DNA of 64,000 bases, from assembly GCF_900177245.1 (NCBI RefSeq), contig NZ_FXBM01000001.1:1054001-1118000 (forward strand), given 5' to 3'. The DNA is from Rathayibacter oskolensis. GTDB taxonomy: Bacteria > Actinomycetota > Actinomycetes > Actinomycetales > Microbacteriaceae. Below, piece by piece: positions 1,743 to 51,920 of this stretch. The position numbers and the translations under genes were made by a program. Below the pieces are notes generated by a model, which had not been told where the DNA came from, searched no databases, and saw only the letters and a program-made list of their open reading frames with translations. Numbering within the stretch: the first letter of the stretch is position 1; the number at the start of each line of letters is the position of its first letter.

Positions 1743-3380
1743 ATGGCAGATATCACCATCAGCCCGGATGAGATCCGCGACGCGCTGAAGGACTTCGTCT
1801 CGTCGTACGAGCCGGGCAAGGCCTCCACCACCGAGGTCGGCTACGTCATCGACGCCGCCGACGGCATCGCCCACGTCGAGGGTCTCCCCGGCGTCATGGC
1901 CAACGAGCTCATCCGCTTCTCGAACGGCGTCCTGGGTCTCGCCCAGAACCTCGACGAGAACGAGATCGGCGTCGTCGTGCTCGGCGAGTTCTCCGGCATC
2001 GAGGAGGGCATGGAGGTGACCCGCACGGGCGAGGTCCTCTCGGTCCCCGTCGGCGACGGCTACCTCGGCCGCGTCGTCGACCCGCTCGGCAACCCGATCG
2101 ACGGCCTGGGCGACATCGCGTCCGACGGCCGTCGCGCTCTCGAGCTGCAGGCGCCCGGAGTCATGTCGCGCAAGTCGGTGCACGAGCCGCTGCAGACCGG
2201 CATCAAGGCCATCGACGCGATGATCCCCGTCGGCCGCGGCCAGCGTCAGCTGATCATCGGCGACCGCCAGACCGGCAAGACGGCGATCGCGATCGACACG
2301 ATCATCAACCAGAAGGCCAACTGGGAGTCGGGCGACACGAACAAGCAGGTCCGCTGCATCTACGTCGCCATCGGCCAGAAGGGCTCGACCATCGCCTCGG
2401 TGAAGGGCGCGCTCGAGGACGCGGGAGCGATGGAGTACACGACGATCGTGGCGTCCCCCGCCTCCGACCCGGCCGGCTTCAAGTACCTCGCTCCCTACAC
2501 CGGTTCGGCCATCGGCCAGCACTGGATGTACGGCGGCAAGCACGTCCTGATCATCTTCGACGACCTGTCGAAGCAGGCCGAGGCCTACCGCGCCGTGTCG
2601 CTCCTCCTGCGCCGCCCGCCGGGACGCGAGGCGTACCCCGGAGACGTCTTCTACCTGCACTCCCGCCTGCTCGAGCGCTGCGCGAAGCTCTCCGACGAGC
2701 TCGGCGCGGGCTCGATGACCGGGCTCCCGATCATCGAGACCAAGGCGAACGACGTCTCGGCCTACATCCCGACCAACGTGATCTCGATCACCGACGGCCA
2801 GATCTTCCTCCAGTCCGACCTCTTCAACGCGAACCAGCGTCCCGCGGTCGACGTGGGCATCTCGGTCTCGCGGGTCGGCGGTGACGCCCAGGTCAAGTCG
2901 ATCAAGAAGGTCTCGGGAACGCTGAAGCTCGAGCTGGCGCAGTACCGCTCGCTCGAGGCGTTCGCGATGTTCGCCTCCGACCTCGACGCGGCCTCCCGCC
3001 GTCAGCTCGCCCGTGGCGCACGCCTCACCGAGCTGCTCAAGCAGCCGCAGTACTCGCCGTACCCCGTCGAGGAGCAGGTCGTCTCGATCTGGGCCGGCAC
3101 GAACGGCAAGCTCGACGAGGTGCCCGTCTCGGACGTCCTGCGCTTCGAGCGCGAGCTGCTCGACTACCTGGGTCGCAACACGCAGGTGCTCTCGACGCTC
3201 CGCGACACGAACGTCCTCTCGGACGACACCGTGGCCGAGCTCAACCGCGCCGTCGACGGCTTCAAGCTCGAGTTCCAGACCGGTGAGGGCAAGCCGCTCG
3301 CCTCGGTCGGACGCGAGGAGCACCAGGCGATCTCGGCCGACGAGGTCGGCCAGGAGAAGATCGTGAAGGGCCGCCGCTAA
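1743..3380 (+). CDS. atpA: ATP synthase F1 subunit alpha
   Basis: The non-catalytic nucleotide-binding subunit of the F1 hexamer, 545 residues. It shows the beta-barrel N-terminal domain, the P-loop GDRQTGKT at about residues 173-180, the signature [14 protein letters not shown], and the C-terminal helical domain. The ATG is preceded by AGGAA. The 111-base gap after atpH contains TATCCT at 1642-1647, which could be an internal promoter, but this is weak. Confidence 0.98.
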
Positions 3381-48103: not shown

Positions 48104-48625
48104 CTAGCCGAGCTCCCCGCGGAACGCGTCGAGCGCCTCCGTCGAGAAGAGGACGAAGCGCACCTCGTCGATCGTCGGGCCGTCCTCGGCGACCGCTCGG
48201 CGCACCGATGACACGGCCACGCGGGCGGCGTCGTCCATCGGCCAGCCGTAGACGCCCGCCGAGACGGCGGGGAACGCGACGGTGCGGGCACCGAGTGCGC
48301 GAGCGCTGCGGATCGACTCCGTGTAGGCGGAGGCGAGGACGGCGGTGCGGTCCTCGCGCGTCGAGAACACCGGGCCGACCGTGTGGACGACCCAGCGCGC
48401 GGGCAGCCTGCCCGCGGTGGTGGCGACGGCGGACCCGGCCGGGAGACCGTCGGGGAGCTCGGTCGCGCGGAGGCGCCGGCACGCCTCGAGGATCTCGGGG
48501 CCGCCGGCGCGATGGATGGCGCCGTCGACCCCTCCGCCGCCGAGGAGGGAGGAGTTCGCGGCGTTGACGATCACGTCGACGTCCTCGCGGGTGATGTCGC
48601 CGCGGACGGCAGTGAGCGTGGTCAT
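48104..48625 (-). CDS. Macrodomain protein (ADP-ribose/O-acetyl-ADP-ribose hydrolase-like)
   Basis: A single macrodomain of 173 residues that binds ADP-ribose and usually hydrolyses ADP-ribose esters. The hallmark VNAANSSLLGGGGVDGAIHRAGG includes the substrate asparagine and glycine loop, and FPAVSAGVYGWP is the second phosphate-binding loop. It corresponds to the MacroD/YmdB type. ATG 48625 has GGAGGAGGC upstream; a frame open to 48679 is not supported. Confidence 0.9.
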   Translation of the reverse strand: MTTLTAVRGDITREDVDVIVNAANSSLLGGGGVDGAIHRAGGPEILEACRRLRATELPDGLPAGSAVATTAGRLPARWVVHTVGPVFSTREDRTAVLASAYTESIRSARALGARTVAFPAVSAGVYGWPMDDAARVAVSSVRRAVAEDGPTIDEVRFVLFSTEALDAFRGELG

Positions 48626-48673
48626 CGTGCCTCCTCCGCGCCCCTCCGGGCGCTGCTTCGAGCATCGCACCCG

Positions 48674-48693
48674 GCGCACCCGATCGGGTGCGC
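48674..48693. repeat. Perfect 20-bp palindrome
   Basis: GCGCACCCGATCGGGTGCGC is fully self-complementary. It lies 49 bases before the macrodomain start, in the 199-base spacer to the upstream regulator gene; it could be an operator for a dimeric regulator or a hairpin without loop. Confidence 0.55.
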
Positions 48694-48715
48694 GTTCTGC
48701 CGTCTGCGATTCGCG

Positions 48716-48745
48716 GGTCTCGACCTGCGGGGCTACCCGACCAGC
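48716..48745 (+). repeat. Interspersed palindromic repeat, copy 2
   Basis: Shares the ends GGTCTCGA and CGACCAGC with the copy at 29835-29870 but has a different, shorter centre (CCTGCGGGGCTACC). The remainder of the spacer (48746-48824) shows no recognisable feature. Confidence 0.55.
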
Positions 48746-48824
48746 AGGCCGTGGGCGGCGGGCGTCTCTCCGGGGATCCGCCGTCCTGCGGGACGGGGTG
48801 CCGCCGCCGCTCCGGCGGCCGGGA

Positions 48825-49103
48825 TCAGGAGCGGTTGTTCGAGAGCTCGAAGATCTTCACCAACTCCGCGATCGCGGCCTCCCGGGCGTCGCCGCCCTCC
48901 TCGAACATGTCGGTGATGTGCGTGCGCAGGTGGTTCTCGACGATCAGCTTGTTCAGCGAGCCGAGCGACTTCTGGATCGCGAGCGACTGCGTGACGATGT
49001 CGACGCAGTAGTCCTCGTTCTCGATCATCTTCTCGAGCCCGCGCATCTGGCCCCCCAGGATGCGGGCTCGGTGCAGGGAGCGTTTCTTGAGGTCCTCGAT
49101 CAC
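48825..49103 (-). CDS. CsoR/RcnR/FrmR family (DUF156) metal- or aldehyde-sensing repressor
   Basis: A 92-residue all-helical tetrameric repressor of the CsoR/RcnR/FrmR family. Ligand positions fall at Cys33, His58 and His62. The third position is histidine, as in RcnR-like nickel/cobalt sensors, rather than cysteine as in copper-sensing CsoR; the N-terminal His of RcnR is not at its usual place. The effector is therefore unclear. GTG start with TAGGCT seven bases upstream. A CsoR-type operator lies between this gene and the divergent membrane-protein gene. Confidence 0.9.
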   Translation of the reverse strand: MIEDLKKRSLHRARILGGQMRGLEKMIENEDYCVDIVTQSLAIQKSLGSLNKLIVENHLRTHITDMFEEGGDAREAAIAELVKIFELSNNRS

Positions 49104-49109
49104 GCGGCC

Positions 49110-49115
49110 AGCCTA
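49110..49115 (-). promoter_or_regulatory. -10 element of the csoR-like gene (leaderless)
   Basis: TAGGCT on the minus strand, seven bases before the GTG start; its -35 region falls inside the operator at 49128-49148. Confidence 0.5.
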
Positions 49116-49127
49116 CGCCGCCGGCCG

Positions 49128-49148
49128 GGATACCCGGGCGGGGTATCC
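49128..49148. promoter_or_regulatory. CsoR-family operator shared by two divergent promoters
   Basis: GGATACCC and GGGTATCC form a perfect 8-bp inverted repeat around GGGCG, the ATACCC...GGGTAT pattern known for CsoR/RcnR-family sites. It covers the presumed -35 regions of both the regulator gene (minus) and the membrane-protein gene (plus). Confidence 0.7.
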
Positions 49149-49154
49149 GGCCCG

Positions 49155-49160
49155 TAGCAT
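49155..49160 (+). promoter_or_regulatory. -10 element of the DUF6804-like membrane protein gene (leaderless)
   Basis: TAGCAT, seven bases before GTG 49167, just outside the operator. Confidence 0.5.
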
Positions 49161-49166
49161 CGGAGA

Positions 49167-49541
49167 GTGAATGCCAAGAAAGCCGGCCCCCCGCCCCGCG
49201 GAGGAGTCGCCGACCGCTACCCCTCCCGATCCACGTCGAAGATGGCACTCGCGCCGGGGATCCTGGCCGCGATCATCCTCGTGGCGGGCCTCGCGCTCGT
49301 GGGGGGCGACGCCTACGACTTCATCCGCTATCCGGTCGCGATCCTCGCGGCCGTGATCGGGTGGTTCGCGATCCAGGGGAGGGCCTACTACTGGCTGGCG
49401 GGTCTCGTCCCGATCGTGCTGCTCTGGAACCCCGTGCTGCCCTTCTCGTTCCCGGACGCGGTCTGGTCCTCGCTCCATCTCGCCGCGGTGGGAGTCGTGG
49501 TCGCAGCGGGACTGCTCATCAAGGTCCCCGTCCCCGAGTGA
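49167..49541 (+). CDS. Small membrane protein, possibly DUF6804 family
   Basis: A 124-residue protein: about 25 polar residues, then four hydrophobic segments (around 28-46, 52-70, 72-88 and 98-118). The pattern DFIRYPVAILAAVIGWFAI...NPVLPFSFPDAVW resembles the small membrane family I know as DUF6804, but this assignment is uncertain. There are no cysteines and hardly any histidines, so it is not a classical metal pump. Divergent from the csoR-like gene with a shared operator, so it is probably a target of that repressor. GTG start, probably leaderless. Confidence 0.65.
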   Translation: MNAKKAGPPPRGGVADRYPSRSTSKMALAPGILAAIILVAGLALVGGDAYDFIRYPVAILAAVIGWFAIQGRAYYWLAGLVPIVLLWNPVLPFSFPDAVWSSLHLAAVGVVVAAGLLIKVPVPE

Positions 49542-49572: not shown

Positions 49573-49766
49573 CGGGGTGCACCCGCGCGCCGGGGATGCT
49601 GCGACCGGGTCTCAGACCCGTTGCTCGGAGCTCCCGACGGCCACCGGGCGCACCGATGCCCGTCACCTCAGCGGAGGCGACGCGGCCTGTGCAAGACAGT
49701 GCAGTGCAATGCGACGGTAGAGCGCGGGAATCCCTCCTCCGCCCCCGTCACACGTCGAGGAGGAGC

Positions 49767-51920
49767 ATGGCTCGCAGCGGCCAGCGTCAGTCCGGTCAGA
49801 CGCGTCGAACCACGAACGCGGCCGGGTCCCGGCCCCGATCGCGCGCGCGCGGAGTCGACAACTCGGGGATCATCCCGATCCTCGCCCGCCGGGTGCGGGA
49901 GGTCGAGGCGAAGGCGCAGACCGGCAAGGTCGGGCCGACCAACCGGACGAAGTTCCTGGTCATCGCCCTCCTCATGCGTGAGGAGCGCAAGCGGGTCAAG
50001 GTCGACACCGAGCTCTCGGACTCGCAGCGTGCAGAAGAGATGAAGCGCCTCGACGGTATCGCGACGATCCTCGCGAAGACCGCCGCGCGGGACACGAGCC
50101 TGATCGCCCTGCTCGAGTCGGAGGCGGGGATCACCCCCGCCGCGCAGAAGCTCCGCCGCGACTGGCTGCTCGAGGCGGGAGCCGAGCTGAGCCCCGACGA
50201 GCTGCTCATCGTCACCGAGCCCGAGCCCAAGCCGGAGGTGCCCGTCAACCAGGTGGTCCCGCCCTCGGTCCGCGCCCGCCAGCTCGCCAACCCGTTCCTC
50301 CCTCCGGACTTCTCGATCGCGGCACCGGCACCCGCACCGCGCCGCCGGCTGGACGACTGGGAGCTGCTCGGCCCGCTCTTCAAGGCCTTCGAGTACGGCG
50401 CCGGCGGTCGCGCCGCGAGCATGGAGCTGCCGGACCCTCCTGCCATCGACCGCGTGACGCCGCGCGGGCGCGAGCTGATGCCGCACCAGGCGCGCTTCAT
50501 CGAGAGCGCGCGGGAGGGGCACCGCAGCTTCCTCCTCGCCGACGAGCCCGGCCTCGGGAAGACGGCCCAGAGCCTCCTCGCCGCCTCCGTCACCGGGTCG
50601 TACCCGCTGCTCGCCGTGGTCCCCAACGTCGTCAAGATGAACTGGGCGCGCGAGGTCGAGCACTGGACACCGCAGCGCCGCGCGACCGTCATCCACGGCG
50701 ACGGCGGCACGCTCGACGCCTTCGCCGACGTCGTGATCGTCAACTACGACATCCTCGACCGGCACATCGGCTGGCTGGGGAACCTCGGGTTCCGCGGCAT
50801 GGTGGTCGACGAGGCGCACTTCATCAAGAACCTGCGCTCGCAGCGCTCGCAGAGCGTCCTCGCGCTCGCGGCGAAGATCCGCGAGACGACCCCCGGGCAC
50901 GACCCGCTGATGATCGCCCTCACGGGAACACCGCTCATCAACGACGTCGACGACTTCCGCGCGATCTGGCGCTTCCTGGGCTGGATCGACGAGACCAAGC
51001 CCGGGCCGGAGCTCATGCGCCAGCTCGAGGAGACGGGACTCACGCCGGCCGACACGGGCTTCTATCCCGAGGCCCGCGAGGCCGTGATCGATCTCGGCAT
51101 CGTCCGTCGCAAGAAGATCGACGTGGCGGCCGACCTGCCCTCCAAGCGGATCGTCGATCTGCCCGTCGAGCTCGACGACGACCTCGGCCGCTCGATCCAG
51201 AAGGCCGAGCGCGAGCTCGGAGCCCGCATGCTGCAGCGGTTCCGCGCCGTCACCGCGTCGATCACGCACGAGCTCGACGACACCGAGCAGGAGCGGTTCA
51301 TCCGCATCGTCGCGCAGAGCGAGCTCGAGGAGTCGAAGTCGGCCAAGACCGGCGAGAACGTGTTCACGATGGTGCGCCGCATCGGTCAGGCGAAGGCGGC
51401 GCTCGCGGCCGACTACGCCTCCCAGCTCGCTCGCTCCGTCGGCAAGGTCGTGTTCTTCGCCAAGCACGTCGACGTGATGGACCAGGCGGAGGACACGTTC
51501 GAGAAGCGCGACCTCACCTCGGTCTCGATCCGCGGCGACCAGACGGCGACCTTCCGGCAGGCGCAGATCGACGCGTTCAACGAGGACCCCGACGTCTCGG
51601 TCGCGGTCTGCTCGCTGACCGCAGCGGGAGTCGGCGTCAACCTGCAGGCGTCCTCGAACGTCGTCCTCGCCGAGCTCTCGTGGACCTCCGCGGAGCAGAC
51701 CCAGGCGATCGACCGCGTGCACCGCATCGGGCAGGAGGAGCCGGTCACGGCCTGGCGCATCATCGCGGCGCACACGATCGACGCCAAGATCGCCGAGCTC
51801 ATCGACGCGAAGGCCGGTCTCGCCGCCCGCGCGCTCGACGGGGCGGACGCCGAGACCGCCTCGGCCGACACGGTCCAGCTCGACGCCCTCATGCACGTGC
51901 TCCGCGAGGCGATCGGCTGA
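49767..51920 (+). CDS. SNF2-type DEAD/DEAH helicase
   Basis: A 717-residue SNF2-family ATPase. An N-terminal region of about 240 residues of unclear function is followed by helicase motif I (ADEPGLGKT, 258-266), motif II DEAH (348-351) with EAHFIKN, motif III ALTGTPLIND, and the C-terminal RecA half with SLTAAGVGVNLQASSNVVLAE and motif VI (QAIDRVHRIGQ). The compact form without added domains resembles SMARCAL1-like or phage-type translocases more than RapA. ATG 49767 with GAGGAGGAG upstream. It converges on sbcC. Confidence 0.9.
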   Translation: MARSGQRQSGQTRRTTNAAGSRPRSRARGVDNSGIIPILARRVREVEAKAQTGKVGPTNRTKFLVIALLMREERKRVKVDTELSDSQRAEEMKRLDGIATILAKTAARDTSLIALLESEAGITPAAQKLRRDWLLEAGAELSPDELLIVTEPEPKPEVPVNQVVPPSVRARQLANPFLPPDFSIAAPAPAPRRRLDDWELLGPLFKAFEYGAGGRAASMELPDPPAIDRVTPRGRELMPHQARFIESAREGHRSFLLADEPGLGKTAQSLLAASVTGSYPLLAVVPNVVKMNWAREVEHWTPQRRATVIHGDGGTLDAFADVVIVNYDILDRHIGWLGNLGFRGMVVDEAHFIKNLRSQRSQSVLALAAKIRETTPGHDPLMIALTGTPLINDVDDFRAIWRFLGWIDETKPGPELMRQLEETGLTPADTGFYPEAREAVIDLGIVRRKKIDVAADLPSKRIVDLPVELDDDLGRSIQKAERELGARMLQRFRAVTASITHELDDTEQERFIRIVAQSELEESKSAKTGENVFTMVRRIGQAKAALAADYASQLARSVGKVVFFAKHVDVMDQAEDTFEKRDLTSVSIRGDQTATFRQAQIDAFNEDPDVSVAVCSLTAAGVGVNLQASSNVVLAELSWTSAEQTQAIDRVHRIGQEEPVTAWRIIAAHTIDAKIAELIDAKAGLAARALDGADAETASADTVQLDALMHVLREAIG

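Follow-up and report, generated by a model that had tools for sequence, protein, structure and literature searches.

A probable copper CsoR with a Cys-His-His triad and its divergent DUF6804 neighbor in Rathayibacter oskolensis

In a stretch of 64,000 nucleotides from Rathayibacter oskolensis (contig NZ_FXBM01000001.1; hereafter the window), a gene for a repressor of the CsoR/RcnR family and a gene for a small membrane protein of the DUF6804 family diverge from a spacer that holds a single CsoR-type operator. The repressor is very probably the CsoR that serves as chromosomal copper sensor in Rathayibacter, with a canonical operator for control of its own gene and with the rarer Cys-His-His (C-H-H) triad. 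A first-pass annotation of the window had left effector and output open and had proposed an undescribed sensing system. It was well observed but over-interpreted. The pair belongs to a well-known family, of which it is a somewhat unusual representative, and is not a new sensing system: the same operator core precedes copper-export genes in relatives that have a single DUF156 gene, and DUF6804 is probably no dedicated output. What was an "unknown sensor, unknown output" becomes a named copper regulator for which a regulon is predicted.

The repressor and its operator

The repressor gene, csoR (copper-sensitive operon repressor; 48825..49103, minus strand), starts with GTG and encodes 92 amino acids. 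Its product matches PF02583 (CsoR/RcnR family, DUF156) with 73.8 bits against a gathering score of 22.8, in agreement with the family given in the first-pass annotation. It also matches CsoR structures in the PDB, best of all 4adz, which we take to be Streptomyces lividans CsoR; in the alignment with 3aai, presumably Thermus thermophilus CsoR (TTHA1719), C-H-H stands at the same three positions. No NCBIfam equivalog scores above its cut-off, the top model being RicR (54.2 bits, cut-off 175). A close orthologue is present in all 15 Rathayibacter genomes searched, and in 11 of them it is the sole DUF156 gene found. Among 398 Microbacteriaceae genomes (tallies for this family are from tables, and gene pictures are from among the matches listed), 152 have a match at E <= 1e-12. 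Counted from the table, 140 of these are close orthologues, and the best match of the other 12 is weaker than 1e-16.

The sensor triad, correctly placed in the first pass, is Cys33-His58-His62 (positions X-Y-Z) and is kept in all 57 distinct orthologues (from 70 loci), each with exactly one Cys. The protein does not have the Cys-His-Cys of a classic CsoR, because His62 replaces the last Cys. The second-shell Tyr32 and Glu80 are found in 57/57 and 56/57 orthologues, Glu80 being mapped through the alignment with Mycobacterium tuberculosis CsoR at what we take to be the network Glu. Gln39 (51/57) aligns with the operator Gln of S. lividans CsoR, with an inferred residue offset. The Tyr and Glu agree with the CsoR Tyr/Glu network, which is absent from FrmR and RcnR (PMC5146963). 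The first-pass annotation called the triad RcnR-like rather than copper CsoR-like. Since the copper-binding CsoR of Thermus is H-C-H-H (PMC5057107), C-H-H is no argument against copper; as described below, the operator also belongs to type 2. Our literature search, in sources partly available, found no description of a one-thiolate C-H-H Cu(I) site in an actinobacterial CsoR. Among the matches listed that pair CsoR with Microbacteriaceae genera, CsoR appears only in a Clavibacter genome paper, where CsoR, CopZ, and CopA are named solely as annotated genes (PMC5358740).

The two GTG starts diverge at 49103 (minus strand, csoR) and 49167 (plus strand, DUF6804) with 63 bases between them. Both genes have leaderless, mirror-image promoters whose positions and hexamers agree with the earlier description. 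The -10 element of csoR, TAGGCT (49110..49115, minus strand), lies six bases before the GTG, and a TANNNT hexamer is found at this spacing in the window and in all 15 Rathayibacter genomes. The -10 element of the DUF6804 gene, TAGCAT (49155..49160, plus strand), also lies six bases before the start; a TANNNT hexamer has this spacing in the window and 13 of the 15 genomes, and the spacing is nine bases in G302 and G384.

Between the two elements is a perfect inverted repeat of 21 bp, GGATACCC-GGGCG-GGGTATCC (49128..49148, not assigned to a strand), with 8-bp arms and a 5-bp spacer. This putative type-2 CsoR operator, recognized by pattern search and by comparison of Rathayibacter spacers, is the single match in the window, where 0.11 matches with up to three mismatches are expected by chance. 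Its 15-bp core TACCC-N5-GGGTA, here TACCCGGGCGGGGTA (49131-49145), is likewise unique in the window (0.01 exact matches expected) and has the form TAC-X9-GTA with G tracts. Type-2 operators, TAC-X9-GTA, are those of copper CsoRs, and type 1 (TACT-G6-N-AGTA) is that of RcnR (PMC3902906). At a 17-bp spacing, the presumed -35 positions of both promoters fall by arithmetic inside the repeat, in keeping with the first pass; no consensus -35 hexamer was seen at these positions. An Rfam scan of the window gave no RNA element at the gathering score.

The operator recurs in the orthologous csoR spacers. Ten of the 15 Rathayibacter genomes have an exact core there, and the other five have one to three mismatches (one in G332, two in G046 and G264, three in G384, and three at an unlikely place in G302). 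The distance from the csoR start to the operator centre is 33-35 bp in the window and in 14 of the 15 genomes, no site being assignable in G302.

Copper genes at operator sites

The regulon was predicted in the 15 Rathayibacter genomes, which stand in for the genome of the window. They contain 52 exact TACCC-N5-GGGTA sites, against five for the reversed pattern. Ten are the sites of csoR itself and 42 lie elsewhere, of which 40 were examined; the remaining two are both on contig C2 of G332. Sites were placed against reference proteins, and the distances for copA and copB are to the start of the tblastn match, which is not always the gene start. Copper genes (copZ/copA or copB) or, in five cases, a DUF4396 gene lie downstream of 32 of the 40 sites. 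By Pfam names and ATPase motifs, copZ encodes an HMA-domain protein, copA a CPC-type ATPase, and copB a CPH-type ATPase. In the 11 genomes with a single DUF156 gene, 21 of 26 non-csoR sites are at copZ/copA, copB, or DUF4396, at least one per genome, and no other DUF156 repressor able to use those sites was found there.

The CPC motif is a mark of Cu(I) ATPases, and CPH is a mark of the CopB group. Among 25 site-linked ATPases, CPC is present in all 15 copA-like and CPH in all 10 copB-like proteins. The YN and M..S[ST] patterns occur in both groups (24/25; the sequence at L116 ends early), so only CPC or CPH separates the copA-like from the copB-like proteins.

In other genera, csoR itself is found beside copper genes at some loci. 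The 61 csoR loci read are not a random sample: L144-L150 were chosen for a nearby DUF6804 gene, and L151-L191 come, with gaps, from a score-ranked list. A copper ATPase gene adjoins csoR in 14 of the 48 loci outside Rathayibacter. In 12 it is copB-like and on the same strand, with CPH seen in 11 (the frame at L171 is a fragment of 65 residues). In the other two it is a divergent copA; at L149 (G335) copZ comes first and then copA. The exact csoR operator is kept in 13 of these 14 loci. The other is L190, which has no exact operator and where the ATPase match starts about 760 bp after csoR. Over all 48 loci, the exact site is present in 21, and the best match in the rest has one to five mismatches. 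The same operator core before copper genes in single-DUF156 relatives, together with the csoR loci beside ATPase genes, indicates that the repressor is a copper CsoR.

The other four Rathayibacter genomes (G400, G332, G264, and G172) carry extra DUF156 genes. Those read are from G400, G332, and G264; the extra gene in G172 and a further one in G332 are outside this set. The extra repressors L083 and L130 (G332, contig C2), L084 (G264, contig C7), and L120 and L082 (G400) have the classic Cys-His-Cys. Some sites in these four genomes, chiefly on contig C2 of G332, may belong to extra repressors. It was also observed that the contigs of L083, L130, L084, and L120 bear copper ATPase genes.

In five Rathayibacter genomes (L092, L096, L098, L109, and L122), a perfect CsoR-type site stands at 37-41 bp from a DUF4396 gene, a candidate member of the copper regulon; in four of the five, a DUF779 gene is nearby. 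Eight sites have no copper gene or DUF4396 gene. Six of them (L103, L112, L115, L119, L125, and L128) represent one conserved TACCC-N5-GGGTA site, near position 3001 of each locus, in six Rathayibacter genomes. It overlaps or just precedes the start codon for a protein that, judged by eye, looks secreted and is encoded beside an ABC transporter, and no Pfam match was obtained in the three copies of this protein scanned. It is possibly a further CsoR target or a case of chance conservation. At the seventh, L102 (G359), tandem repeats of the TACCCC/GGGGTA type are present near 3001 and none of the reference copper genes is nearby. At the eighth, L123, an MFS gene adjoins an operator-type site.

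DUF6804 and the rival explanations

The divergent partner (49167..49541, plus strand) starts with GTG and encodes a membrane protein of 124 amino acids. It matches PF20619 (40.5 bits, cut-off 27), and its four helices without Cys, noted in the first pass, are borne out by the sequence, which lacks Cys, and by the structure model, which predicts four helices (mean pLDDT 82.8). A Foldseek search of the model against the PDB gave no match at E <= 0.001, and no paper in the collection searched names DUF6804. In an alignment of 25 homologues, the 11 invariant columns consist only of A, L, P, F, W, and N. With no Cys, His, or Met in these columns and no fold match, a role as metal exporter is unsupported.

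DUF6804 is present in 270 of the 398 Microbacteriaceae genomes. The first pass had suggested looking for its pairing with DUF156 genes across the family. Among the loci read, the direct pairing exists only in Rathayibacter, and in some species the two come apart. In the 48 csoR loci of other genera, DUF6804 lies within the locus in 16, at 640-4276 bp from csoR, and is never its immediate divergent neighbor. Intervening genes were annotated in all but L147 and L164. Of the 14 identified, 11 are RbsD/FucU-like and the others are copA (L163), a phytase-like gene (L148), and DUF2207 (L150); L149 has copZ-copA as well as an RbsD/FucU-like gene between csoR and DUF6804. An SNF2-family gene then follows DUF6804 on the same strand in all 29 csoR loci that hold DUF6804. 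For the 30 best-scoring DUF6804 loci (L008-L037, with flanks of about 1.5 kb, so that a csoR farther off would be missed), 27 could be placed; SNF2 follows DUF6804 in 15, and one has csoR. The link with SNF2 is thus common, not universal. Most simply, csoR and the DUF6804-SNF2 pair would be neighbors separated by a variable slot, which is empty in Rathayibacter.

It is unlikely that DUF6804 is the true, selected output, a copper-stress membrane protein kept under the shared operator in Rathayibacter. Such a role would agree with the position of the gene: in 11 of the 15 genomes the DUF6804 start is 27-39 bp from the assigned operator centre (seven exact sites and those of G332, G046, G264, and G384), so that the bound repressor should block DUF6804. 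Moreover, 9 of 28 non-redundant DUF6804 upstream regions with csoR in the locus, all from Rathayibacter, have a site with at most one mismatch. However, the DUF6804 start is 64 bp away in G117, 456 bp in G401, and 458 bp in G001, and G302 has no assignable site, while the distance from csoR is fixed. None of the 26 upstream regions without csoR in the locus (54 non-redundant upstream regions in all) has a site with at most two mismatches, and DUF6804 was therefore rejected as a general CsoR target. The invariant columns contain no His, Cys, or Met, and DUF6804 adjoins SNF2 more often than csoR. Because it lies at varying distances from the operator (27 to 458 bp), because the other genera read never have it as the immediate divergent neighbor, and because csoR-less upstream regions have no site with at most two mismatches, DUF6804 is probably a bystander of csoR and not its dedicated output.

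Other effectors than copper can be considered. An RcnR-type role in sensing nickel or cobalt is very improbable for the repressor, although His62 at position Z is an RcnR feature. In the RcnR numbering that we presume to apply, the His of position W is absent and Met1 falls there. The genes linked to sites are copZ and CPC- and CPH-ATPases, not a nickel or cobalt exporter, and the operator has the type-2 form instead of the type 1 of RcnR (PMC3902906). It is extremely improbable that the repressor senses formaldehyde or reactive sulfur as FrmR or CstR does, in the service of some membrane function. In favor of this are the single conserved Cys and a score of 31.4 bits with the NCBIfam FrmR model, although that is far below the cut-off of 133. 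CstR has a Cys pair, whereas one Cys only in each of the 57 orthologues means that there is none here, and the regulon at the operator sites is one of copper genes. Residue 2 is Ile, not the Pro2 that is the rule at position W of FrmR (PMC5146963).

Proposed mechanism and known systems

The family, the triad, the operator, its repeated occurrence ahead of copper genes in related genomes, and the shifting synteny are read directly from sequence; DNA binding by the repressor, Cu(I) as its effector, and release by Cu(I) are what we infer under the copper CsoR reading. In the absence of copper, CsoR tetramers would bind the type-2 operator across the -35 and spacer region of the csoR promoter, and would also occupy corresponding sites ahead of copZ-copA, copB, and a DUF4396 gene at other places in the genome. 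With Cu(I) held by Cys33, His58, and His62, the repressor would be released, and copper efflux proteins and fresh repressor would be made. The operator in the window would be first of all an autoregulatory site. It also covers the region where the DUF6804 promoter is presumed to lie, so in this strain copper is likely to induce DUF6804 too, through its position. Because DUF6804 abuts the operator and the intervening genes of other genera are missing, its repression and copper induction would probably be a side effect of gene order and not a conserved output. A shared operator can therefore mislead where one neighbor is probably a bystander.

Thermus CsoR, like the window repressor, is a DUF156 protein with Cys-His-His at X-Y-Z. 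It represses the copZ-csoR-copA operon and is a bona fide CsoR (PMC10318464). It has an extra His5 at W (PMC5057107), which the window repressor lacks, and its site is longer and GC-rich (PMC10318464), unlike the window operator. S. lividans CsoR resembles the window system in its type-2 operator (consensus ATATACCCCTNAGGGGTATAT) and in having sites before copZA operons (PMC3902906). It differs in its Cys-His-Cys triad, where the window repressor has His62 for the last Cys. The csoR-cueA pair of Bradyrhizobium liaoningense is divergent, as in the window, and has a TATACCC-N5-GGGTATA box, but there the partner is a copper ATPase (PMC5057107) and in the window it is DUF6804.

We tentatively propose, as a possibility that is less likely than the assignment to CsoR, that in many Microbacteriaceae a one-Cys C-H-H CsoR without the W His serves as chromosomal copper sensor through a Cu(I) site with one thiolate. 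Where no genes lie in between, as in some Rathayibacter, the gene for the conserved membrane protein DUF6804, formerly copper-independent, might have come under the operator and so become copper-inducible. The C-H-H CsoRs form a large actinobacterial clade, some members of which are linked to copper exporters, and are a natural set in which to ask how a CsoR with one thiol tells Cu(I) from other metals.

Two observations concern the flanks of the pair. Downstream of DUF6804 in the window is its frequent neighbor, an SNF2-family helicase gene (49767..51920, plus strand; PF00176 and PF00271), whose start was chosen by eye. The segment before this start (49596-49766) is open in frame, is similar in the Rathayibacter locus L001, and has no Rfam match; it is either an N-terminal extension of SNF2 or a conserved leader. 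On the other side, the csoR stop in L001 shares a few bases (3230-3233) with the start of a macro-domain gene, which suggests coupling. A macro match stands at the same place in six more Rathayibacter loci, and in the window the gap is about 200 bp (48623-48825).
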